Assembly (NCBI GenBank): GCA_013388545.1
Contig: JACAFB010000002.1
Span: forward strand, 62,001-126,000
Origin: Ignavibacteriaceae bacterium
GTDB taxonomy: Bacteria; Bacteroidota; Ignavibacteria; Ignavibacteriales; Ignavibacteriaceae
Length of the DNA: 64,000 nt
Direction of reading: 5' to 3'
Below are positions 34,163-46,896 of this stretch, in pieces (the first letter of the stretch is position 1; every line of letters begins with the position of its first letter). Made by a program: the position numbers and the translations under genes. The notes under the pieces were generated by a model. The model searched no databases. It saw only the letters and a program-made list of their open reading frames with translations, and was not told the origin of the DNA.

Positions 34163-34540
34163 AATTTACCCACTCCTAAGGGAATTCTTCTCAGTTAAAA
34201 CAAATGCTTAGTAAGCTGAATATTATTTCTAAGTGTGATTCTGTTCTTCAAATACTTTATAAAGTTTTTCTATAAAAAAATTATAAAAAAAGCTTTTTTC
34301 TATAATGTGTTAATTTCAATAGTCTTAAAGCTTTCATTTAATCTATTCTTTAGGTGTTTAATTAAACCAATTCATTTCTCTAGTCTTAAGAACAAATAAA
34401 ATCATTTTTCATTTTTCAAATTTTAATTTGTTAATACTAAGGTAATATTTATTTAAACAATTCGTAAATCTTCGATAATAACGCCGTAATAAAACCATCA
34501 TAAGTTTGCCCCACGTTTCATTTATTTGAGAGGGTTATTA
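34163..34540 (+). promoter_or_regulatory. Upstream control region of the TonB receptor gene
   Basis: About 380 very AT-rich bases. It contains two copies of TAGTCTTAA (34320 and 34381, 61 bases apart), a 12-base palindrome GTTTAATTAAAC at 34356-34367 between them, and a TAnnTTTG box near the gene. No ORF is supported. The repeated element could be the response-regulator site. Confidence 0.4.
34501..34508 (+). promoter_or_regulatory. Candidate -7 element (TAAGTTTG) of the TonB receptor gene
   Basis: Matches TAnnTTTG, 32 bases before the chosen ATG. No clear -33 TTTG, which would fit dependence on an activator. Confidence 0.4.
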
Positions 34541-37318
34541 ATGTTTAAAATATTACTGTGGTATATAATTTATTTTAGCATTAGTGGGTCAGTCGTTTTT
34601 GCTCAATCAACCGGAACTTTAACAGGAAAGGTGATTGATGCTACTACGGGAGAGAATATAATTGGGGCAAATGTTTTGGTGGATGAAACCAATCTTGGAG
34701 CAGCTACGGATATTGAAGGAACCTTTATAATTAAAAATGTTCCTGCCCGAACTGTCAGCATAACTATTACTTTTATCTCTTACACAAAGACAACAATTAC
34801 TGATGTTGTTGTAGAAGCTGGTAAAGTAAAGACAGTAAATGTTAGCTTAAAACCTCAAACCCTTGACATTGGAACAGAGGTAGTAGTCGTTGGCAGTATC
34901 TCAGGGCAATATGAGGCGGCATTATTAAATCAGAGAAAAAAATCCATACAGATAAGTGATGGTATCAGCGCTGAACAAATAAAACGATCAACTGACAACA
35001 CCACCGCAGAAACCTTGAGGAGAGTTCCGGGTCTGACTTTACTGGACAACAAATACATCTTTGTCCGCGGAGTGAGTGAAAGATACAACACAGCATTATT
35101 AAATAATTCCCCTCTTGCCAGTTCCGAGCCAGATAAAAAAGATTTTGCATTTGATTTAATACCTTCAAACCTGATAAATAATACAACAGTAATAAAATCA
35201 TTTACTCCTGACGAACCGGGTGATTTCTCAGGAGGGCTTGTGAAGGTTAATACTGTCGAATTTCCGTCCGAAACAATTTTTTCTTTTAGTTATTCAACCT
35301 CATATGTTGATAATGTTTCAACTAAACAATACAACACATATCAAGGCAGCAATACTGATTTTCTGGGATTTGACAACGGTTTCAGAAAATTACCGGAAGG
35401 ATTTCCTGATCCTCTAACCTTTAAGAATTATGATAACAGTCTAACTGATACCAACAGAACTTATTGGTCAAAAAAACTAAATGACAAATGGGGCATTCAA
35501 AACAGAAAAGAATTTCTTGATCAATCATTTGCTCTGACATATGGAGATAGGTTTAACATTTTTGATAGTGATTTAGGCATTATTGCCTCATTAACATATA
35601 AGACAGGTATAAACTCAAAAAATATTACAACCCGTGATATAGAAAGTAAAGAGAATAAAACTTTTTTCTACGATTATTCTGGTTACAGATTCTCTAAAAA
35701 TGTTTACTGGGGAGGTCTGATAAACATCTCTTATAAATTAGGAGAGCTGCACAAAATCAGCTTAAAAAATACTTTAACTGTTGATTCAGATGACGAAGTC
35801 ACAAAACTTCAGGGATTTAAATTTGATTATCAGGATGAAAGAATAATTAATGCCTTAAGATATGTTTCAAGAAATCTTTATTCAGGACAGTTAGCCGGTA
35901 CAAGTATAATCCCGCTCTTTAATAATATTCAGATTGATTGGAGAGCATCTTATTCATCTTCCTTCAGGGACGAACCAGATTACAGAAGAAACGCTTATAA
36001 TCGGGATATAGCTGATTCAAATACAACAAATCCCTTTTACGCTTATATACCAAGAGATCCCGACTTTTATGCAGGAGGAAGATTTTATTCTACTCTTAAA
36101 GATTATAAAAGAGGACTAGGAATTGATCTGACTCAAACATTTGACTTTCTGAAAATCAAAACAGGCGTAAACCATTATAACAGCTCGCGATCTTTCAATG
36201 CCAGATTATTAAGTGTTACTGATCCTTTTGGATCTGCCCGCCAAACCATTGGCTTGTGGGATCTTGATTCTCTTTACAGGGTTGATAACTTCAGTAAAAG
36301 ATACATAATGATGAGAGAATTTTTTGACCCGGCAAATGATTATACATCAAAAGATAATTTATTTGGTTACTATTTGATGACCGAGTTAAGCTTCAATTTA
36401 ATTAATCTGAACTTTGTACTAATCTCCGGTTTAAGAATTGAGAATTATGAATTAAAGTTAAGAACAACTTCGTCCATTGCAACGGGAATGAAACCAATTA
36501 CTGTTGATAATTTTAACAGCGATTTGCTTCCTGCATTTGGATTAATTTACAGAGTCACAGACGCACTGAACATCCGACTTTCTTTCAGTAGAACAATCAA
36601 CAGACCTCAGTTCAGAGAAATTGCACCTTTTGTTTATTATAACTTTGAAGATCAAACTCTGGTAAGAGGTAACACTGAATTAAAACAAGCAAATATTTCT
36701 AATTATGATTTACGATTTGAAGCATTTCCAGACATTGGAGAATTAATCTCCCTCAGCTTATTCCTTAAAGAGTTTCGCAATCCTATCGAAAGAGTTTTTT
36801 TAGTCTCAACAGGTCAAAACGACCGAACATTCGCAAATGCATCATTCGCACGCAATGCAGGTTTTGAAATAGAATACAGAACATCTCTTGGCAAAATTTT
36901 GAACCTTTTTGACAATTTTAATTTTACAGCCAACTATTCAAGAATCTGGTCAGAAATAGAAGAGACAAATATTGGTACCGGAAGGCAATTACGACCTATG
37001 CAAGGTCAAAGTCCATATGTAATTAATCTTTCATTAAACTACCAAAATATTCAATATGATTTTTCAATAAACCTGTTATTCAACAGATTCGGAAAAAGAA
37101 TCATAGAAACTGCAAATTTTCAAGGGGATGATATTTATGAATTTCCCCGGGATATCATCGATTTAGTAGCTACAAAGGGAATTGGGGATCAGGTCGAAAT
37201 TAAGTTCTCAATCAAAGATCTTTTTGCTCAACCTTATGAATACTTTGAAGATGATATTCTGGTCAAAAAATATACAACTAACACCAAGCTGTCACTTGGT
37301 GTTAGTTACAAGCTTTAA
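34541..37318 (+). CDS. TonB-dependent outer-membrane receptor with N-terminal carboxypeptidase-like domain
   Basis: A 925-residue SusC-like receptor. The ATG at 34541 is used because GAGAGGG lies just upstream and the signal peptide (FKILLWYIIYFSISGSVVFAQ) begins there. Next comes a CarboxypepD_reg-like domain ('GKVIDATTGENIIGANVLV', ~25-110), a plug domain (~125-230: 'RRVPGLTLLDNKYIFVRGV', 'SERYNTALLNNSPLASSEP', 'GDFSGGLVKV') and a 22-strand-type barrel to the C-terminus. Plug wording RGVSERYNTALLN is found in a receptor class spread across Bacteroidota and Proteobacteria. No SusD partner follows; three T9SS-secreted proteins do. The substrate is unknown. Confidence 0.93.
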   Translation: MFKILLWYIIYFSISGSVVFAQSTGTLTGKVIDATTGENIIGANVLVDETNLGAATDIEGTFIIKNVPARTVSITITFISYTKTTITDVVVEAGKVKTVNVSLKPQTLDIGTEVVVVGSISGQYEAALLNQRKKSIQISDGISAEQIKRSTDNTTAETLRRVPGLTLLDNKYIFVRGVSERYNTALLNNSPLASSEPDKKDFAFDLIPSNLINNTTVIKSFTPDEPGDFSGGLVKVNTVEFPSETIFSFSYSTSYVDNVSTKQYNTYQGSNTDFLGFDNGFRKLPEGFPDPLTFKNYDNSLTDTNRTYWSKKLNDKWGIQNRKEFLDQSFALTYGDRFNIFDSDLGIIASLTYKTGINSKNITTRDIESKENKTFFYDYSGYRFSKNVYWGGLINISYKLGELHKISLKNTLTVDSDDEVTKLQGFKFDYQDERIINALRYVSRNLYSGQLAGTSIIPLFNNIQIDWRASYSSSFRDEPDYRRNAYNRDIADSNTTNPFYAYIPRDPDFYAGGRFYSTLKDYKRGLGIDLTQTFDFLKIKTGVNHYNSSRSFNARLLSVTDPFGSARQTIGLWDLDSLYRVDNFSKRYIMMREFFDPANDYTSKDNLFGYYLMTELSFNLINLNFVLISGLRIENYELKLRTTSSIATGMKPITVDNFNSDLLPAFGLIYRVTDALNIRLSFSRTINRPQFREIAPFVYYNFEDQTLVRGNTELKQANISNYDLRFEAFPDIGELISLSLFLKEFRNPIERVFLVSTGQNDRTFANASFARNAGFEIEYRTSLGKILNLFDNFNFTANYSRIWSEIEETNIGTGRQLRPMQGQSPYVINLSLNYQNIQYDFSINLLFNRFGKRIIETANFQGDDIYEFPRDIIDLVATKGIGDQVEIKFSIKDLFAQPYEYFEDDILVKKYTTNTKLSLGVSYKL

Positions 37319-37440
37319 TTCACATAAACTGTACATCGTTATTTTCTGAAAGGAGGTGTTTACGGAATTAAAGAAAATTTTGAAAAAATATCCGTCAGAA
37401 ATTTAAAGAATTTTTAACTATTAACAAGGAGTTCAACAAA

Positions 37441-40341
37441 ATGAAAAAGATTTGGAGTCTATTACTGACAGTAGTTTTAGTTGTGCCGGTTTTTGCTCAA
37501 TTAACACCAACTGACAGCACAATAACCAACAATGGCGGTGCTGGAATTACATCCAGCGTTGTCCTTGATAAAAACAAAGTATATTTAATTCAGGGATTTG
37601 TTTACGTAAGAAACGGTGGAACACTAACAATTCCTGCAGGTACAGTATTATTAGGAGAAAAATCCTCACAGGGATCATTGATCATCGAAAGAGGAGGGAA
37701 AATATTTGCTAATGGAACTGCCCAGGAACCAATTGTCTTCACAAGTCAACAACCAGCAGGTTTAAGGACCCGCGGCGACTGGGGAGGAATAGTGATTTGT
37801 GGAAAAGCAGCTAACAACAGACCTGGTGGAAACTTTGTTGTTGAAGGTAATATTGGAAGCACTGCCGGCTATGGCGATGGAGGAATTGTTCAGGATGATA
37901 ATGATAACAGCGGAGTTCTCAGGTATGTAAGAATTGAATTTCCAGGTATAGCTTATACTCCTAACAATGAAATTAATGGTTTAACTCTTGCTGCTGTTGG
38001 CAGAGGAACAACAATTGATCATGTTCAGGTTAGTTATTCCGGAGATGATGCTTTTGAGTTTTTTGGCGGAACAGTAAACGCAAAATATTTAATTGCTTAT
38101 AAATCGCTGGACGACGATTTTGACACTGATTTTGGATATTCAGGTAAAATCCAGTTTGGAGTAGCTTACAGAGATCCGAGATTGTCTGATGTTAGTAAAA
38201 GTGAAGCATTCGAAACAGATAACGATGGAAGCGGGACTACGGCTTCTCCCAGAACTGAACCAGTGTTTTCAAATATTACTGTAATTGGACCCAAAAGGTT
38301 AGCAACAGACGTTAGCCCTACAAATTTTGATTCTGATTTCTATTATGGAATTCATCACCGAAGAGCAACAAGGCATAATCTGTTTAACAGCTTGATTATG
38401 GGTTTTGATGAAGGTGGTATCTTCTTGGATGGTGCAACAGTGCAGGGAGACACAGCCAATTTCACCTATAAAAATAATCTCTTCACGGGGATGTCAAAAT
38501 TAATTGAACCAACAACTTATAATGCCTGGTTTTCTGGGTATGGAAATTCTCTCTCTTCCGACCTAAACGCTGGTCTTTTAAAGGCTCCTTTCAATCAAAC
38601 AAGTCCAGTTATGATACCACAAGCGGGTTCTCCTCTTTTGGGTACAGCTTCATTCACTGGTAGTAAAATATCTGATCCTTTTTTCACAGTAGTTACTTAT
38701 CGTGGTGCTTTTAGTGGTAATGGTTCAGAAAGATGGGATCTTAACTGGGCTAATTATGATCCGCAGGGAATTGTCTATAATAATAGCAACTTAGTCTGGT
38801 CTTCAATTATAAATTTAACAAGTCCATCAAACAAAACTGCTTCAGTTATCATCGGTCGTGGCGTTGGTGCAACAGATGGAATTGATGCATCATTCGGAGA
38901 AGCAAATCTGCCGCCAGTTCCGCCAACAGGTGTTGATTTAAGATTAGAACTTCCAGGCGGGACACAATTCAGTGCTCTTGACATCAGAAGTGCAGCTACC
39001 ACTTCCAGTGTTATCACTTACACACTTGATATGCAGGACCCCGGTGTGCTTAATTGGGATCCTAATCAACTTGGAGCAGGAAAGTTTACATTGAAAGACG
39101 GTTTTGGTGGTTCAGTATTTCCAAATCTGGATATGAAAACTGCTTCATCTCAAAATGTATCCACATTAACTTCTGTTCTTATAGAAGTTGATACAAGGTT
39201 TAATCAAACCATTGTCGTAGGCAACCAGTGGAATCTTGTATCATTTCCCGGAGTACATCCGAATAGTATGAGTGTTGATACTCTATATAGAGGCAGAGAT
39301 TTAACAACACCCGTTTACAAATTTTCCGGCGGATATGTTACAACCTCTACGATGACACCAGGAGAAGGATACTGGATGTTTCATAATGGAGTTAGAACTT
39401 ATAACTGGAATGGAACAACTCAATCAGGTATTCTTTATCCAAAGCTTAACTACTCAGCAAGAAATGTTTTCGAAGCTCCAAGTGGCTGGTCAATTATTGG
39501 TGGTTATGAATATAATGCAGATGTAAACTTCATCAGAACCATGCCAGAGAATAAGAGAACGGGATTGATATATAAATATGTACCAGGTAGCGGTTATTCT
39601 TCTGTTGGAGTGCTTGAACCAGGATTAGGTCATTGGGTTGAACTCACAGGTGCTGCAAACATAATTATACCGGGACCATTTGCAGGCACGCTTGGTAAAA
39701 ATCCTGCTGATGAATTGATACAATCTAACTGGGGTAAAATACTCATTTCAGATGCAATTGGTCAACATTATACATTGTATGCAGCAAATGGTGACGTTGA
39801 TCTAAAAACTTTCAACTTGCCTCCATTACCACCTGCAGGTTTATTCGATGTTAGATTTGCATCACAAAGATTCGTGGAAGATTTATCGGCTACACAGTTA
39901 ATCAATTTAACCGGAGCAGTCTATCCTGTTACAATTTCAGTTGAAGGAATGAATATGAAGTTAGATTATTCAACTGAGTCTGGAAAAGTTAGTACTATTT
40001 TGAAAAATGGTGATAATCATAAAATAGCAAACAGCAGTAATAATACTTTAAGTGTTAAAACCGAAAAAGTAATTCCAGATGAATATATCTTAGAACAGAA
40101 CTATCCAAATCCATTTAATCCAACAACCACAATCAAATTCTCTATTCCAATGGCAGGTAACGTAAAGCTTACGATCTATAATGCTGTTGGTCAGAGAGTT
40201 GCGGAACTGGTTAATGGAACATTGGAAGCGGGTTCTTATTCATTTAATTGGGATGCTACAAAGATGGCATCAGGTTTATATTTCTATGAATTAAACACCA
40301 ATAACTTTTCTTCAGTAAAGAAGATGATGCTATTAAAATAA
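37441..40341 (+). CDS. T9SS cargo protein, beta-solenoid-like with two LPPxPP modules
   Basis: A 966-residue exported protein with an AAGGAG site. Signal peptide 1-20. Residues ~25-460 are a glycine- and beta-rich region with solenoid-like wording ('GTLTIPAGTVLLGEKS', 'GDWGGIVICGKAANN'). A first LPPxPP module is at ~465-590 ('FGEANLPPVPPTGVDLRLEL'). Two 'WNLVSFPG/GWSIIGG' domains follow (~595-765), then a second module at ~768-850 ('NLPPLPPAGLFDVRF') and a type A sorting domain ('LEQNYPNPFNPTTTIKF', ending VKKMMLLK). It follows the TonB receptor by 122 bases. It is likely a surface or extracellular partner of that receptor; function unknown. Confidence 0.87.
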   Translation: MKKIWSLLLTVVLVVPVFAQLTPTDSTITNNGGAGITSSVVLDKNKVYLIQGFVYVRNGGTLTIPAGTVLLGEKSSQGSLIIERGGKIFANGTAQEPIVFTSQQPAGLRTRGDWGGIVICGKAANNRPGGNFVVEGNIGSTAGYGDGGIVQDDNDNSGVLRYVRIEFPGIAYTPNNEINGLTLAAVGRGTTIDHVQVSYSGDDAFEFFGGTVNAKYLIAYKSLDDDFDTDFGYSGKIQFGVAYRDPRLSDVSKSEAFETDNDGSGTTASPRTEPVFSNITVIGPKRLATDVSPTNFDSDFYYGIHHRRATRHNLFNSLIMGFDEGGIFLDGATVQGDTANFTYKNNLFTGMSKLIEPTTYNAWFSGYGNSLSSDLNAGLLKAPFNQTSPVMIPQAGSPLLGTASFTGSKISDPFFTVVTYRGAFSGNGSERWDLNWANYDPQGIVYNNSNLVWSSIINLTSPSNKTASVIIGRGVGATDGIDASFGEANLPPVPPTGVDLRLELPGGTQFSALDIRSAATTSSVITYTLDMQDPGVLNWDPNQLGAGKFTLKDGFGGSVFPNLDMKTASSQNVSTLTSVLIEVDTRFNQTIVVGNQWNLVSFPGVHPNSMSVDTLYRGRDLTTPVYKFSGGYVTTSTMTPGEGYWMFHNGVRTYNWNGTTQSGILYPKLNYSARNVFEAPSGWSIIGGYEYNADVNFIRTMPENKRTGLIYKYVPGSGYSSVGVLEPGLGHWVELTGAANIIIPGPFAGTLGKNPADELIQSNWGKILISDAIGQHYTLYAANGDVDLKTFNLPPLPPAGLFDVRFASQRFVEDLSATQLINLTGAVYPVTISVEGMNMKLDYSTESGKVSTILKNGDNHKIANSSNNTLSVKTEKVIPDEYILEQNYPNPFNPTTTIKFSIPMAGNVKLTIYNAVGQRVAELVNGTLEAGSYSFNWDATKMASGLYFYELNTNNFSSVKKMMLLK

Positions 40342-40355
40342 TTCTTTCATCAAGA

Positions 40356-40384
40356 TTACCTATCTCCGCAAAGGAGGTAGGTAA
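40356..40384 (+). repeat. Intercistronic hairpin with buried AAGGAGG
   Basis: Stem TTACCTATCTCC/GGAGGTAGGTAA (one G-T pair) around a GCAAA loop, 14 bases after the stop. No T-run follows, so termination is doubtful; mRNA 3'-end protection or partial termination between the two cargo genes is more likely. The AAGGAGG inside the stem precedes no gene. Confidence 0.6.
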
Positions 40385-40455
40385 CTTTGAATAAGAATTT
40401 CACTTAGAATTGATTTTAGAACTTAAAACAAAAATTTAGAGGAACCAGAAATTTT

Positions 40456-43038
40456 ATGTCAAAAAAAGGTATAAAAATATTTTTATTTATTCTTGGGATT
40501 TTACTCCTTAACACGAGTAACATTTTTTCCCAGGCAGAAATTGATATTCCAATAACCGTCAGTAATAATGCACCGTCACCAAATTCAACTCCAACCTTTA
40601 TAGGATTGGATCTTACAGCAACTGATACGCTTGATGTTGGATTAGGCGAGGCAAATCTTCCTCCTCTTCCACCAGCAGGTGTTTGGGACGTAAGATATGA
40701 TTTGGGTGGTGGAAAATCTTCATTCCGCGATTATAGAAATGCACCTTCATATCCTTTTACGGGAACCAAAACTCATTTACTTAAATGGCAGCAAGCAACC
40801 GGTGCAACAACAGTCACTATAACCTATAATATGCCCGCGAATTCCTCCTTAAGAATTCAGGACACATTTGGCGGACCAATTTTAAATGTTGGTCCCTTTA
40901 CCGGTTCAGGTTCATATACTATTACTAATACATCATTAACTTCGGTCAACTTAATTGTAGAATACTCTGCGATTAATCCACCTGTTTCAGGACCAATATT
41001 CAATATATCTCCCTCGTCTCCGCTCACGATTCCACCAACTGCAGTTGGTTCGTCGAACTCTGCCAATGTAACAGTAAGTAACACAGGAACAGCTGCATTG
41101 GATATCACAAGTATAACTTCGTCAAATCCTGAATTTACAATAGCACCAACAAGTGCTACAATTCCTGCAAGTGGAAATCAGGTATTTGTAGTTACATTTA
41201 CACCAACTTCTCTTGGAAATAAAACAACTAATCTTGTATTTACCCATAATGCTTCAGGTTCACCGACAACATATGTTGTAAATGGAGTAGGAGCAGACGC
41301 TGGTCCTACTTTTTCAGTTACACCAACATCATTAACATTCAATACCAATCAGGGTGTACCTGTCACTCAAAATGTAACTGTAACTAATAATGGTTTAACA
41401 AATGCTTTGGCTATTTCTAGTGTAACCACAAGCTTGCCTTACTCAGTCAGCCCTACCTCAGCAAATATTCCTGCAGGCGGGAGTCAGGTATTTGCGGTAA
41501 CATTCAGCCCAACAACCGGTGGTTCATTTCCAGGTTCTCTGGTTTTTACACATAATGGGACAACATCACCGGATTCTGTGACCTTATCGGGTACCGCTGT
41601 TTCAGTTTTTGGATTAGTATTTGCCCAAGAAAAAAGGTATGTAAAAGAAGATTCAACCTATACAGATATTATCCAACTGAAAAGTCTAACTCAAACAACT
41701 CAGGCAATTCAGTTCAGATTATTAGTCAATAAATCAACTGGAGATAATTCGATAATTACTTTTCAAAGTATTGAAAAGGGAGCTGATATAGCTGCAAATC
41801 CAAACTGGTCATTGCAATACGAAATATACAGAGGCCCTATTACTGCAAATGGCTCATCGGTTGACTCAATCTATGTGCTGTTATACAACCTTCAGCAAAA
41901 TAGTGGATTGCCTGCTGGCAGTTATGATTCACTTTTAAAGGTTAATTACTATGTAGTTGATTTACCAGCTTTGGTTGATACATCAAAATCATCCTTTAAA
42001 ATTGATAATGCACAGGGAAGTACTTATCAGGGTGCCCCGGTCAATATAACACCTTCACGCGATAAATTTGAAGTTTTTGTTACAAACAGAGCTTCATCTC
42101 TTGGTGACGTCAATGGCGATGGAAGTATAGATATTCTTGACTTAATAAATGTTGTAGATCATATACTTGGCAGAGATTCGCTTAATGCCAGTGAATTTGC
42201 CAGAGCGAATATTGCCCCCTGGACAGTTGGTGCTCCAGCCCCAACTCCGGATGCATTTGTTAATGTTCAGGATCTGGCAGTAATACAGAATATAATATTA
42301 ACCGGGTACTATCCAAGTGGTGTGGCTCTGAATAGAGCATCTTTTATAGCTACTGTTGATGAAAAGCTGTTGAATAAAATAAATGGCTCGGCTAAAGTTA
42401 AGTTATTTATAACTAATGACGGTATAGCCGTTAAATTGGATTCGGACATCGGAATCCGTGGTGTTCAGCTTGAATTCAATAACGTTAAAACTGAGATTGG
42501 CAATATGTTAATTGATTCAAGACTTGGCGGCGGTTATTATCATCAGTCGGGTGATCTTTTGCGTGTGCTATTATATGATCAGGCTGGAAATGCTGTTATT
42601 AATGAAGGTGATAATTTGGTCGCAAATATGCCATTTGATTTATCAGATCCGAAATCAGTTTCGATCAATAAAATAATTCTTGTGAGCATTAACAATCAAA
42701 AGATAGATGATATAAATGTTGAGATATATTACAGTAATGCTCCGGAAATACCTGTTGATTATTCTCTTTCTCAGAATTTCCCAAATCCATTCAATCCAAG
42801 CACAAGTATTCAATTTTCTGTGCCAAAAACCGGATTTGTAACGATAAAAGTATATGATTTAATTGGACAAGAAGTTACTACTTTGTTCGCTGGAATAGCA
42901 GAAAGAGGATTGTACACTTTAATATGGAACGGGAAAGATGATAATGGAAACCTTGTAAGCAGCGGAAGCTATATTTACAGGATGTCAGCTAATGATGGGG
43001 GATTTGTTTTATCAAAGAAAATGACTTTTCTGAAATAA
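40456..43038 (+). CDS. T9SS cargo protein with LPPxPP module, choice-of-anchor D repeats and dockerin-like segment
   Basis: An 860-residue exported protein. Signal peptide 1-26. Residues ~28-175: LPPxPP module ('LGEANLPPLPPAGVWDVRY'). Residues ~180-390: two choice-of-anchor D/ASPM-like repeats ('NVTVSNTGTAALDITSI', 'NVTVTNNGLTNALAISSV'). Residues ~395-545: cohesin-like beta-sandwich. Residues ~550-625: dockerin-like calcium loops ('LGDVNGDGSIDILDLINVV', then 'PDAFVNVQDLAVIQNII'). A second beta domain is at ~640-770 and the type A sorting domain lies near 780-860 ('LSQNFPNPFNPSTSIQF'). Dockerin and cohesin-like parts suggest protein-protein assembly at the cell surface. No enzyme domain. Confidence 0.87.
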   Translation: MSKKGIKIFLFILGILLLNTSNIFSQAEIDIPITVSNNAPSPNSTPTFIGLDLTATDTLDVGLGEANLPPLPPAGVWDVRYDLGGGKSSFRDYRNAPSYPFTGTKTHLLKWQQATGATTVTITYNMPANSSLRIQDTFGGPILNVGPFTGSGSYTITNTSLTSVNLIVEYSAINPPVSGPIFNISPSSPLTIPPTAVGSSNSANVTVSNTGTAALDITSITSSNPEFTIAPTSATIPASGNQVFVVTFTPTSLGNKTTNLVFTHNASGSPTTYVVNGVGADAGPTFSVTPTSLTFNTNQGVPVTQNVTVTNNGLTNALAISSVTTSLPYSVSPTSANIPAGGSQVFAVTFSPTTGGSFPGSLVFTHNGTTSPDSVTLSGTAVSVFGLVFAQEKRYVKEDSTYTDIIQLKSLTQTTQAIQFRLLVNKSTGDNSIITFQSIEKGADIAANPNWSLQYEIYRGPITANGSSVDSIYVLLYNLQQNSGLPAGSYDSLLKVNYYVVDLPALVDTSKSSFKIDNAQGSTYQGAPVNITPSRDKFEVFVTNRASSLGDVNGDGSIDILDLINVVDHILGRDSLNASEFARANIAPWTVGAPAPTPDAFVNVQDLAVIQNIILTGYYPSGVALNRASFIATVDEKLLNKINGSAKVKLFITNDGIAVKLDSDIGIRGVQLEFNNVKTEIGNMLIDSRLGGGYYHQSGDLLRVLLYDQAGNAVINEGDNLVANMPFDLSDPKSVSINKIILVSINNQKIDDINVEIYYSNAPEIPVDYSLSQNFPNPFNPSTSIQFSVPKTGFVTIKVYDLIGQEVTTLFAGIAERGLYTLIWNGKDDNGNLVSSGSYIYRMSANDGGFVLSKKMTFLK

Positions 43039-43048
43039 AGCATTTCTT

Positions 43049-43080
43049 ATTCATCTCTCTCTTTACAGAGAGAGATGAAT
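43049..43080 (+). repeat. Intercistronic hairpin
   Basis: A perfect 13-bp stem ATTCATCTCTCTC/GAGAGAGATGAAT with loop TTTACA, 10 bases after the stop. Followed by TAAAATATC, not a T-run, so it is at best a weak terminator. Confidence 0.6.
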
Positions 43081-43209
43081 TAAAATATCTAAGAAAAAAG
43101 GAAATAATTCTTGTTTCTCTGAGTGTCAATTAAAAACATTACTTAAATGATCTTAGAGAAAAAATAATTAAATCATTAAAATATTTTACAATAAACGGGA
43201 AGAATAAAA

Positions 43210-43998
43210 ATGAAATTAGCTTTAATACTTATTTGTGTTTTCGTTTTGACAGGATTATTGAAATCTCAAACTAATCCTGCAATTATGATCAGCCTTGAAT
43301 TTTCAGATCCGGTAGAATCCAGAACAATCTATTTTGGGATTGATCCGACAGCAACTGACAGTTTAGATTTTCTTTTAGGTGAAGCAAATCTGCCACCATT
43401 CCCACCAGCACCAACTCTTGAAACCAGATTTCTTTTACCCATTGATAATTTTGCAGGAACGAAAAGTACATATAAAGATTTCAGAAATGGAAATATTCCA
43501 TTCAGCGGACAAAAAGAACATAGAATACAATTTCAAAGCAGAGGCTCATTAAAGATGTTTTGTAATTTGCCACCAGAAATAAATATACAGGTAACAGATT
43601 TATTTGGTGGAGTAATACTTAACACCAATCTTTCCGGTATAGATACATTGAGTATACCTGATGCTCTGAATCAACTTAAATTTTTCATCAATTATAATAA
43701 TGCAACTTTAGTTGATGAGGAACAATTTCAGGACATAGATTTTAATTTATCTCAAAATTATCCTAATCCTTTCAACCCTTCTACCAATATTCAATTTACT
43801 TTGAATAATCGTCAGTTTGTCAGGCTGACCATTTTTGATTCAATTGGTCGGGAGATTGCTACGTTAATTAACGATGAGATATCTGCCGGAGTTCATAATG
43901 TTTATTTCAATGCAGACGGTCTTACTAACGGAGTGTATTATTATAGATTAATTTCAGGGAATTTATCCCAAACAAAGAAAATGATATTGATAAAATAA
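43210..43998 (+). CDS. Small T9SS cargo protein consisting of one LPPxPP module
   Basis: A 262-residue exported protein: signal peptide 1-19, a single LPPxPP module (~25-165: 'FGIDPTATDSLDFLLGEANLPPFPP', 'YKDFRNG', 'IQVTDLFGGVILNT', 'LKFFINY') and a type A sorting domain (~175-262; 'LSQNYPNPFNPSTNIQF', ending TKKMILIK). The module aligns by eye across its whole length with the N-terminal module of the 860-residue neighbour, so the gene looks like a stripped-down paralogue. It shows that the module can stand alone as a secreted unit. Confidence 0.87.
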   Translation: MKLALILICVFVLTGLLKSQTNPAIMISLEFSDPVESRTIYFGIDPTATDSLDFLLGEANLPPFPPAPTLETRFLLPIDNFAGTKSTYKDFRNGNIPFSGQKEHRIQFQSRGSLKMFCNLPPEINIQVTDLFGGVILNTNLSGIDTLSIPDALNQLKFFINYNNATLVDEEQFQDIDFNLSQNYPNPFNPSTNIQFTLNNRQFVRLTIFDSIGREIATLINDEISAGVHNVYFNADGLTNGVYYYRLISGNLSQTKKMILIK

Positions 43999-44081
43999 CC
44001 TTCAAAATCAGTTTTATCATATAATTTTAACTTAATGTACTGACAATAATTATCAATTAGATTTACTGCAGATGGCATAAG

Positions 44082-44663
44082 ATGAACACTGATAATGAAA
44101 ATGAAATAATTTTACTAAAGTCTAATTATCTAATACCCATATTGAACAATATAACCAAAAGGAATTCTTCATATAGTCGGTATAAAGTTAATGCACATTA
44201 TTTAAATTGTTCCTGTAAAGAATACAGATTGAATACAAAATATTACGAATTGAGAGATTTGAGAAGGATTTGTAAGCATATATTTTTCATAATCACCAGA
44301 GATTACAGAAATAGTGTTGATGAATTGACATCACTTTTGCTTGAACACAGGTTTTGGGACAAAATTGAAAATGTAATTGAATTAAAAGTATTTAAAGAGA
44401 ATATTTTTGTTGGTTTTGAAAAGGATCTTAAGTTCGTAAGAATCTACCGGAAATATATAAACTGGAAATACTATTCCTACCTCATAGAATCAAAATCGTG
44501 GGAGCATAATCTCCCTCCTTTTAAGTCATCAAATAAAAATGAAAAGTTGATTAGCTTCTTATTAGCTGAAGCTAAAAATAATTTTAATCTTACGAAGAGC
44601 TCAAGAAAAAACCGCCTGGAGATGGTATCTCAGGCGGTTGTCGAAGGGGAGAGAGTAGGATAA
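44082..44663 (+). CDS. SWIM-type zinc-finger protein
   Basis: A 193-residue protein with no signal peptide. Near residues 42-70 it has the SWIM pattern CxCx(n)CxH: 'LNCSCKEYRLN' followed by 'RRICKHIFFII'. SWIM fingers bind DNA or proteins and are usually part of larger proteins such as transposases or SWI/SNF ATPases; here little else is present. The last ~20 residues are encoded by a GC-rich hairpin that reads as a terminator on the other strand, so the natural C-terminus may have been changed. The ribosome site is weak. Lying 83 bases after the T9SS cluster, it may be an extension of that unit. Confidence 0.65.
   Translation: MNTDNENEIILLKSNYLIPILNNITKRNSSYSRYKVNAHYLNCSCKEYRLNTKYYELRDLRRICKHIFFIITRDYRNSVDELTSLLLEHRFWDKIENVIELKVFKENIFVGFEKDLKFVRIYRKYINWKYYSYLIESKSWEHNLPPFKSSNKNEKLISFLLAEAKNNFNLTKSSRKNRLEMVSQAVVEGERVG
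44605..44639 (-). terminator. Orphan minus-strand terminator inside the SWIM gene 3' end
   Basis: On the minus strand AACCGCCTG/CAGGCGGTT (extendable with ATCT/AGAT) is followed by TTTTTTC. There is no annotated minus-strand gene upstream of it, so it may end a small RNA. Confidence 0.6.
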
Positions 44664-44850
44664 ATAAATTAACTACCTTTCAAAGGTATTCTGTCAATAT
44701 TAAATCAAGATTACCATAAGATTAAGAAATTTTTAGCTTTCTGTTAATTAAACATTAATTAAGAGCAGAATTTCTCTTAATACTCATAAACCCTTACAAA
44801 TAACTCCAATCTCTGTTTAATATATTTATTACGTTTGAATAAGTATAAAT

Positions 44851-44882
44851 AAAAACGCCCTCTACTCTGTCACGGAGAGGGC
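44851..44882 (-). terminator. Orphan minus-strand terminator in gene-free region
   Basis: The minus strand reads GCCCTCT-N12-AGAGGGC then GTTTTTATTT. No coding gene lies upstream on that strand for more than 1.6 kb. Confidence 0.6.
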
Positions 44883-45188
44883 AAGCTCCACTTTAAGCGG
44901 CTAACAGAAGTTTCTCTAAAAGAAATTTAACTGTTAAAAGCTACTGCAAAATTTAAAGTATTATCTTGTTAATTTAATTACCATTATATAAAAACATCGT
45001 TAAACTAGTGTTAAAGAGAAATGAAAGACATTTCATTATTTTTAGCACAGTTGCTTTTTATGTAACAATATTGAATCAATAAATACATATTCAAAATTCC
45101 AAAGAAAAAGAAAATAATTTTTTATGAGATTTGTTAAATGATAATTAAATCAATTTAATTTTAATGTGGCGTATTAAAAATATTAGTT

Positions 45189-45196
45189 TAATTTTG
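45189..45196 (+). promoter_or_regulatory. Candidate -7 element (TAATTTTG)
   Basis: Matches TAnnTTTG, 28 bases before the ATG of the secreted protein gene; a GTG/TGTGG sequence stands at the -33 distance rather than TTTG. Confidence 0.4.
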
Positions 45197-45224
45197 TAAC
45201 AAAATTTTCAGGAAAATTATAATA

Positions 45225-46055
45225 ATGCAAGTTAGAATCCTTTTAATAAAAGTATTTATTTCTATCTTATTTATTTCTAATGGTACAATTCAAGCACAGA
45301 CGTATGCTGATAATAGCAAGATAGCATTCATCAGACAGCATAACGTTAAATCAATTAAAGTGACTTCGTATCCGTATATAAAAGGTGAGCCTTCAAAAAA
45401 GGGAGTGCTTAAAAATTCCTATCATTACGATATGGAAGGGAAATTGATTGATGTCTATAATTACCTTCCTGATGGTTCATTGGTTTCGCAAAATAAATAC
45501 ATTTATAATCTTGATGACAGCCTGATAACATTTCAATATTTCAGTATTACAGGAGGAGGAAATTCAACTACCAGGATTGAATATGAAGCGTCTGGATTGC
45601 GGAAGGCTGAGTACTTTCAAAAAAGCGGGAATAACGTTCTCAGTGCAACCTATAGTTATAATAAATTAAAACTTCCTGCAGAAGTAACTTTGTTTATCGA
45701 TCCATTTTCAGGTAAAACCGGAAAAGTTACATATGAATATGATCAGAATAACAGATTAGTCAGTTTAACAAGGCAAAACATAGGAAAGATTCCATTCCTG
45801 AAAGAAGTTTTTTATTATGACTCTGCCGGTGCATTAACCGGAATAACATCATTTGATGAAGATCAGACTATAAGAAAATCAATTAAATATAAGTATGCTC
45901 AGAAAGGAAAAATAATTGAGATATTTACTGAGGAAATGAATTCATCTGAGAAGCGGCTTTTATTTTATAACAGCAAAAGAATGTTGATTGAAGAGAAAGT
46001 ATCCTCCTCTGCAAAAGGAATGTTCTTGATCAAATATGAGTACGAGTATTATTGA
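45225..46055 (+). CDS. Exported protein with YD/RHS-like repeats, unknown function
   Basis: A 276-residue protein with a signal peptide (LIKVFISILFISNGTIQAQ). The mature part is a series of beta-hairpin repeats of about 20-25 residues built around 'Y.Y' pairs ('YHYDMEGKLIDVYNYL', 'YEYDQNNRLVSLTRQ', 'FYYDSAGALTGITSF'), like the YD repeats of RHS proteins but without the RHS core or toxin domain. There is no T9SS sorting domain, so it may stay in the periplasm. Single-gene unit with a candidate promoter. Confidence 0.72.
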   Translation: MQVRILLIKVFISILFISNGTIQAQTYADNSKIAFIRQHNVKSIKVTSYPYIKGEPSKKGVLKNSYHYDMEGKLIDVYNYLPDGSLVSQNKYIYNLDDSLITFQYFSITGGGNSTTRIEYEASGLRKAEYFQKSGNNVLSATYSYNKLKLPAEVTLFIDPFSGKTGKVTYEYDQNNRLVSLTRQNIGKIPFLKEVFYYDSAGALTGITSFDEDQTIRKSIKYKYAQKGKIIEIFTEEMNSSEKRLLFYNSKRMLIEEKVSSSAKGMFLIKYEYEYY

Positions 46056-46473: not shown

Positions 46474-46509
46474 AAAAAAAAATCCTCAGAGTTTAACACT
46501 CTGAGGATT
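46474..46509 (-). terminator. Intrinsic terminator of the STAS gene
   Basis: On the minus strand AATCCTCAGAG/CTCTGAGGATT with a 7-base loop is followed by a long T-run, 25 bases after the STAS stop. A textbook case. Confidence 0.92.
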
Positions 46510-46533: not shown

Positions 46534-46896
46534 CTATGAAAAGAAACTCATTATAGCGGCCTTGCGCGTTGGATAAGAATTGAAAGTCTTTAAAACTTGT
46601 GTTTTCGAAATCAGAAATCTTGCCATAGCAACTGGTTCAACAATTCTCAATTCACCACCTCGCTGTAACATCTCTTTCATTAAGACCACAATTGATCCAA
46701 TAAAAGTAGAATCAATAAACTCACAAGTACTCAGGTCTATGATTATCTTTCTGAACTTCAGATCGATATCGTGTTTAACAAATTCTTTGAAATTCAATGC
46801 ATCTTTCATTGTTGCACAATTAAGATTCACAACCTCAATGGCAACGTCTTTGTAATAAAACCTTTGAAAGTCTTCCATTATTTCCTCAATTGACAT
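46534..46896 (-). CDS. STAS-domain protein (anti-sigma-factor-antagonist type)
   Basis: A 120-residue single STAS domain. The typical core is 'RKIIIDLSTCEFIDSTFIGSIVVL', with the Ser after Asp (DST) in the position phosphorylated in SpoIIAA and RsbV. Such proteins release sigma factors or act in partner switching once dephosphorylated. No RsbW-type kinase or PP2C phosphatase is adjacent. It is a monocistronic gene with a strong terminator. Confidence 0.86.
   Translation of the reverse strand: MSIEEIMEDFQRFYYKDVAIEVVNLNCATMKDALNFKEFVKHDIDLKFRKIIIDLSTCEFIDSTFIGSIVVLMKEMLQRGGELRIVEPVAMARFLISKTQVLKTFNSYPTRKAAIMSFFS

Follow-up and report, generated by a model that had tools for sequence, protein, structure and literature searches.

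What do two terminator-like hairpins end when no gene lies upstream of them on their strand? The question is raised by the 560 bases of AT-rich DNA (18-30% G+C in the gap region) that separate a SWIM-like ORF from the next plus-strand gene, within a window of 64,000 nucleotides (62001-126000 of its contig) taken from a genome of 2.9 Mb in 88 contigs. An earlier note on this DNA had proposed that the two hairpins, here H1 and H2, mark the ends of one or two small RNAs. We examined the hairpins, the upstream DNA that might drive their transcription, their conservation and the competing ways of reading them. The features from which the argument starts are as follows.

44082-44663, plus strand: SWIM-like ORF (CxC...CxH), 193 aa
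44605-44639, minus strand: H1, intrinsic-terminator-like hairpin with T-tract, antisense to the SWIM-like ORF at its 3′ end
44848-44882, minus strand: H2, intrinsic-terminator-like hairpin with T-tract, tail GTTTTTATTT
45225-46055, plus strand: next gene downstream, its protein secreted-looking and weakly matching RHS repeats
46534-46896, minus strand: STAS gene, with its own terminator at 46481-46509

Two minus-strand hairpins of terminator type

Both hairpins and their T-runs were located on the minus strand where the earlier note had put them. H1 (AACCGCCTGAGATACCATCTCCAGGCGGTT, 44610-44639, -17.5 kcal/mol) lies within the last 54 nt of the SWIM-like ORF and is antisense to it, as had been claimed. 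Its stem runs straight into TTTTC, or TTTTTTC with the stem's own TT (T-tract 44611-44606), so that seven of eight minus-strand bases directly at the stem are T. H2 (GCCCTCTCCGTGACAGAGTAGAGGGC, 44857-44882, -12.2 kcal/mol) is located 194 nt past the SWIM stop codon and is followed by the minus-strand T-run of its tail. In both cases a GC-rich stem runs directly into a U-tract, the arrangement by which intrinsic terminators are recognized.

Counting both strands, the window contains 8 T-run hairpins at -14 kcal/mol or below and 11 at -12 or below. A first-order Markov null gave 0 and 0.67, respectively, per strand per 64 kb; at the -12 threshold this is an expectation of ~1.3 for both strands versus the 11 observed. 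H1 ranks near the top of the window in energy and folds far better than its shuffles (z -3.8). H2, with an energy near the lower edge of the gene terminators, is the weaker hairpin, since its 76-nt neighbourhood folds no better than shuffles (z -0.85). The statement that the two are as good as the terminators of known genes was nevertheless borne out: both resemble the genome's gene terminators and stand above the Markov null. Judged from their sequence, we take H1 and H2 to be real minus-strand terminator-type signals.

No minus-strand gene precedes either hairpin

Gene terminators of this genome mostly start 5-27 nt past the stop codon. Among minus-strand ORFs that have a start codon and at least 20 codons, none stops just before H1 or H2. 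From 44640 up to the STAS gene, itself followed by a terminator of its own, the minus strand carries no gene; the absence of an upstream gene, also part of the earlier note, is thereby upheld. Two short start-codon ORFs on the minus strand (44974-45048 and 45011-45094) have their stop codons over 90 nt short of H2, and the longest minus-strand stop-to-stop stretch in the gap is at most 36 codons. No protein gene overlaps the hairpins on the same strand, as is expected of an intergenic sRNA.

Orphan terminators were surveyed in a 464-kb sample of the same genome. Only three compact hairpin/T-run sites outside called genes proved to be orphans: H1, H2 and the reverse side of a tRNA-Pro terminator. 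The simple gene caller had overlooked the SWIM-like and STAS genes, which affects orphan rates; hence visual inspection was used to judge which sites are orphans, for compact ones only. The label of orphan minus-strand terminators is well supported.

Promoter candidates upstream of the hairpins

The earlier note had pointed to a possible sigma-70-like promoter, TTGTTA-N18-TAAAAA, upstream of H2. The string is present on the minus strand (~45068-45039), but its type is wrong for this genome: it matches 4 of 6 bases per hexamer and is missing from the consensus scan list, and a sigma-70 promoter of the TTGACA/TATAAT kind was rejected because of this poor match and because the tRNA genes use TTG-N20-TAnnTTTG instead. 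De novo two-block promoter discovery ended in AT-rich noise, so the promoter type was derived from the upstream regions of tRNA genes in the same genome (n=32). These promoters read TTG-N20-TAnnTTTG, often then C, with a score of at least 8 in 17/32 tRNA upstreams versus 1/32 on the opposite strand, and at 0.24 per kb of coding DNA. The motif is that of the Bacteroidota primary sigma factor, described for Bacteroides and Flavobacterium (PMC7366714, PMC9723704). Three minus-strand candidates resemble it, the last of them within the promoter region of the downstream gene.

44681-44688, minus strand: exact -7 element TACCTTTG, candidate RNA1 promoter, TTG at 17 nt (usual 20)
44946-44954, minus strand: weak -7-like element AAATTTTGC, candidate RNA2 promoter, TTA 20 nt upstream
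45207-45200, minus strand: -7 element AAATTTTG, TTG at N20, score 8
45189-45207, both strands: promoter region of gene 45225-46055, with TAATTTTG on the plus strand (45189-45196) and AAATTTTG on the minus strand

Of random non-coding positions, 26% have a site as good as TACCTTTG or AAATTTTGC at 40-110 nt upstream, and 14% have a minus-strand site as good as AAATTTTG no more than 400 nt away. None of the three minus-strand candidates is significant alone; they are at chance level. A 17-bp palindrome, AATTTTGTAACAAAATT (45190-45206), covers the -7 elements of both strands in front of gene 45225-46055, which makes it a possible bidirectional promoter; palindromes with arms of at least 8 and a centre of 0-1 nt occur at ~0.13 per kb of non-coding DNA.

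Predicted anatomy of the minus-strand RNAs

The sequence shows the hairpins, their T-tracts and their strand, and no credible gene for them; transcription, both start sites and any function of the minus-strand RNAs are inferred. The predicted RNAs, and a further structure between H2 and the downstream gene, are the following.

44605-44676, minus strand: candidate RNA1, ~72 nt, CU-rich unpaired stretch UACUCUCUCCCCUUCGAC followed by H1
44851-44942, minus strand: candidate RNA2, ~92 nt, SL1 (UAACAG..CUGUUA), SL2 (CCGCUUAAAGUGG) and terminator H2
44984-45067, plus strand: long imperfect hairpin, ~34 pairs of which four are G-U, z -4.3

In the likeliest anatomy RNA1 would run from ~44676, a start placed 5 nt past its -7 element, to 44605; H1 would be preceded by 37 nt that are CU-rich and for the most part unpaired, and the RNA would cover the final 59 nt of the SWIM-like ORF on the opposite strand. 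Its CU-rich stretch might pair in trans, or the RNA might act in cis, as an antisense RNA against the SWIM mRNA at its 3′ end. With the start at 44676 its fold has a z of -5.5, mostly contributed by H1; the upstream body alone gave -2.0. The RNA ending at H2 would in the same scheme be either RNA2, from ~44942 to 44851, or a longer one of ~345 nt from the element at 45207. The minus-strand piece 44850-44945 is predicted to fold into stem SL1, the small stem SL2 and the terminator, and the RNA2 body showed no extra stability compared with shuffles. Neither RNA body shows unusual structure upstream of its hairpin.

Folding is often better in plus-strand windows than in minus-strand ones, mainly through H1, which counts on both strands, and through the hairpin 44984-45067, single copy in the genome and stable on the plus but not on the minus strand. 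Regarding G-U pairs, those of SL2 favour the minus strand whereas those of SL1 and of the long hairpin favour the plus strand; pointing to different strands, the structures do not settle which one is transcribed.

Searches for relatives and known families

No copy of the locus was found elsewhere in its own genome at a meaningful E-value, and a dispersed repeat of REP or MITE type was rejected, the locus being single copy. In Rfam no family reached its gathering score (best rli38, 25.5 bits versus a cut-off of 49, E 0.67), and a known RNA family was likewise rejected. A likeness between the flank of H1 and that of the STAS terminator (GGAGA..AACTA, plus strand) was dropped as well: a DNA search with it returned short coincidences, one of them at a Shine-Dalgarno site.

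A DNA search of 59 genomes revealed no relative that keeps the sequence. The covariance-model search of related genomes proposed in the earlier note was run with models of RNA1 and RNA2 on 80 family genomes and detected no conserved copy or structure. The best RNA2 match (32 bits) was rejected, lying inside a 517-aa ORF, and so was the best RNA1 match (31 bits): it marks the end of an ordinary minus-strand gene, whose terminator stem coincidentally follows UACUCUCUCYCCU as well. The remaining alignments viewed showed the common hairpin alone or weak stems, and some were ordinary gene terminators. Since the genus is a singleton among the genomes searched, the absent conservation is not evidence against function.

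Used as protein anchors, the SWIM-like ORF and gene 45225 recovered only relatives of 23-33% identity, whose neighbours differ where inspected. The SWIM-like ORF has no Pfam match; its family relatives (23-32% identity) stop, by our estimate, short of the H1 overlap, so that H1 probably once lay outside coding sequence. The C-terminus of the ORF is ~25-40 codons longer than in these relatives and the surplus covers H1, and an earlier stop codon may possibly have been lost. The family relatives adjoin a second ORF of roughly 211-224 aa that resembles, by eye, an HTH/LexA-type repressor, a gene context quite unlike that at 44082-44663.

Hairpins at the gene ends of the upstream cluster

The SWIM-like ORF is the last gene of a plus-strand cluster (34526-44663) that also comprises a TonB receptor and three T9SS-sorted proteins; the C-terminal sorting domains in the window are of the Por secretion type. 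Together with an NFACT protein whose nearest named relatives (up to 47% identity) are MAGs of Ignavibacteria and other Bacteroidota, these domains suggest a placement of the genome in Ignavibacteria. In four of the five cluster genes the 3′ end has a strong hairpin with no plus-strand T-run (37275-37308, 40357-40383, 43049-43080 and H1 itself, 44610-44639), compared with ~12/326 sampled gene ends. As the cluster was chosen after the hairpins had been seen, this contrast is suggestive and no planned test. The cluster hairpins may possibly be intercistronic elements of mRNA processing or stability, and H1, as one of the four, may be a hairpin of a plus-strand mRNA 3′ end.

37275-37308: TonB receptor hairpin, inside the 3′ end of the gene, -20.6 kcal/mol, with minus-strand T-run TATATTTTTT

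A few bases separate the T-run of the TonB hairpin from its stem, and TTG-N19-TAAATTTC at 37405 on the minus strand resembles a promoter. This makes 37275-37308 a candidate for another antisense RNA, of ~130 nt, and suggests that antisense RNAs at the gene ends of the cluster are possible. With H1 and 37275-37308, at least two cluster genes would end in antisense-oriented terminators. On this basis one could imagine a lineage-specific sRNA pair, the first member with a CU-rich anti-Shine-Dalgarno-like stretch and also antisense at the SWIM 3′ end, within a cluster-wide antisense system, a scheme that we consider very improbable as a whole.

Weighing the explanations

That H1 and H2 are real intrinsic terminators, at which one or two short non-coding RNAs from the minus strand of the gap end, is, in our estimate, close to an even chance, and it is the best single reading of the locus. 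It is preferred because the terminators equal those of the genome's genes in quality and exceed the Markov null, because they are near-sole compact orphans in 464 kb, because no start-codon ORF of at least 20 codons stops just before them, because minus-strand elements of the TTG-N20-TAnnTTTG type stand at plausible distances and because the orphan density fits the sRNA numbers of Bacteroides thetaiotaomicron (PMC7366714). Against it count the chance-level promoters, the bodies of no unusual structure, the lack of detected conservation and of an Rfam match, and the several windows that fold better on the plus strand. Thus the one or two small RNAs of the earlier note survive as a proposal, but with a promoter type that was wrong, lineage-type replacements that do not rise above chance and a credible plus-strand alternative for H1. 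The same terminators would also be seen if the promoter of gene 45225 fired both ways and tandem terminators halted a functionless divergent transcript, ~345 nt long to H2 with read-through to H1, before it entered the SWIM-like ORF and the cluster in antisense direction. A single promoter would then account for two consecutive terminators, the palindrome overlaps both -7 elements, the minus element scores 8 with TTG-N20, and symmetric -10 elements give rise to divergent, often non-coding transcripts in E. coli and Salmonella (PMC10268837). The palindrome may however be fortuitous in DNA of 18% G+C, and the frequency of equally good minus elements given above also weakens this insulator, which we hold to be unlikely.

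We regard as unlikely, and a little more so, that H1 and perhaps H2 are 3′-end or intercistronic hairpins of the TonB-T9SS-SWIM cluster mRNA, protecting or processing it, with the A-run incidental. The excess of such hairpins in the cluster speaks for it, as do the better fold z-scores of plus-strand windows, the plus-only stability of 44984-45067 and the SWIM relatives, from which H1 may once have sat just past the stop codon. It has to contend with the T-run directly at the H1 stem (p = 0.06 for a T-run beside a random non-coding strand position), with two of the three other cluster hairpins having no stem-adjacent minus T-run like that of H1, and with H2, which lies off the gene ends and has a minus T-run of its own. 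Quite improbable is a relic, in which H1 and H2 once ended a minus-strand gene since deleted or decayed: decay is the simplest source of orphans where terminators normally follow a gene by 5-27 nt, but the minus-strand open stretches between the hairpins or upstream of H2 do not exceed 36 codons, the region has 18-30% G+C, and the scenario requires the loss of two separate genes. Least credible are chance hairpins beside chance T-runs. T-runs are common in AT-rich DNA and H2 is moderate (z -0.85), but for a hairpin of the strength of H1 the null expectation is near zero, and two such sites stand less than 250 nt apart on the same strand.

Relation to known systems

Transcriptomes of Bacteroidota commonly contain intergenic sRNAs that end at a terminator, as well as antisense RNAs (PMC7366714, PMC9723704), so that the candidates belong to a known kind and the locus is a plausible sRNA candidate of that kind. 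A limited search of the open literature surfaced no sRNA studies in Ignavibacteria. If the preferred reading is true, the minus-strand RNAs would be candidate sRNAs for this group, and orphan terminators together with the TAnnTTTG promoter type could help to catalogue such RNAs in members that are uncultured; as the evidence stands, this is an ordinary candidate for an ordinary kind of feature.

In Bacteroides thetaiotaomicron, a start site together with an intrinsic terminator was found for 49 intergenic sRNAs (PMC7366714). Like these RNAs, for example GibS, the candidates would be short and intergenic, with a predicted TAnnTTTG-type start and an intrinsic terminator end; unlike them, they are predictions from sequence, with no sequence kinship expected, and come from another class within the broader phylum group. 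RNA1 would also resemble the DonS-type RNAs (PMC7366714) and the antisense RNAs of Flavobacterium psychrophilum (PMC9723704) in lying opposite a coding gene and in its predicted length, although DonS-type RNAs sit opposite susC homologs and candidate RNA1 opposite the 3′ end of a SWIM-like ORF. Finally, the palindrome in front of gene 45225 is comparable to the bidirectional promoters of E. coli and Salmonella (PMC10268837), with a palindromic -10/-7 region and overlapping elements on both strands, but its element is of the TAnnTTTG type and its divergent starts are predicted.
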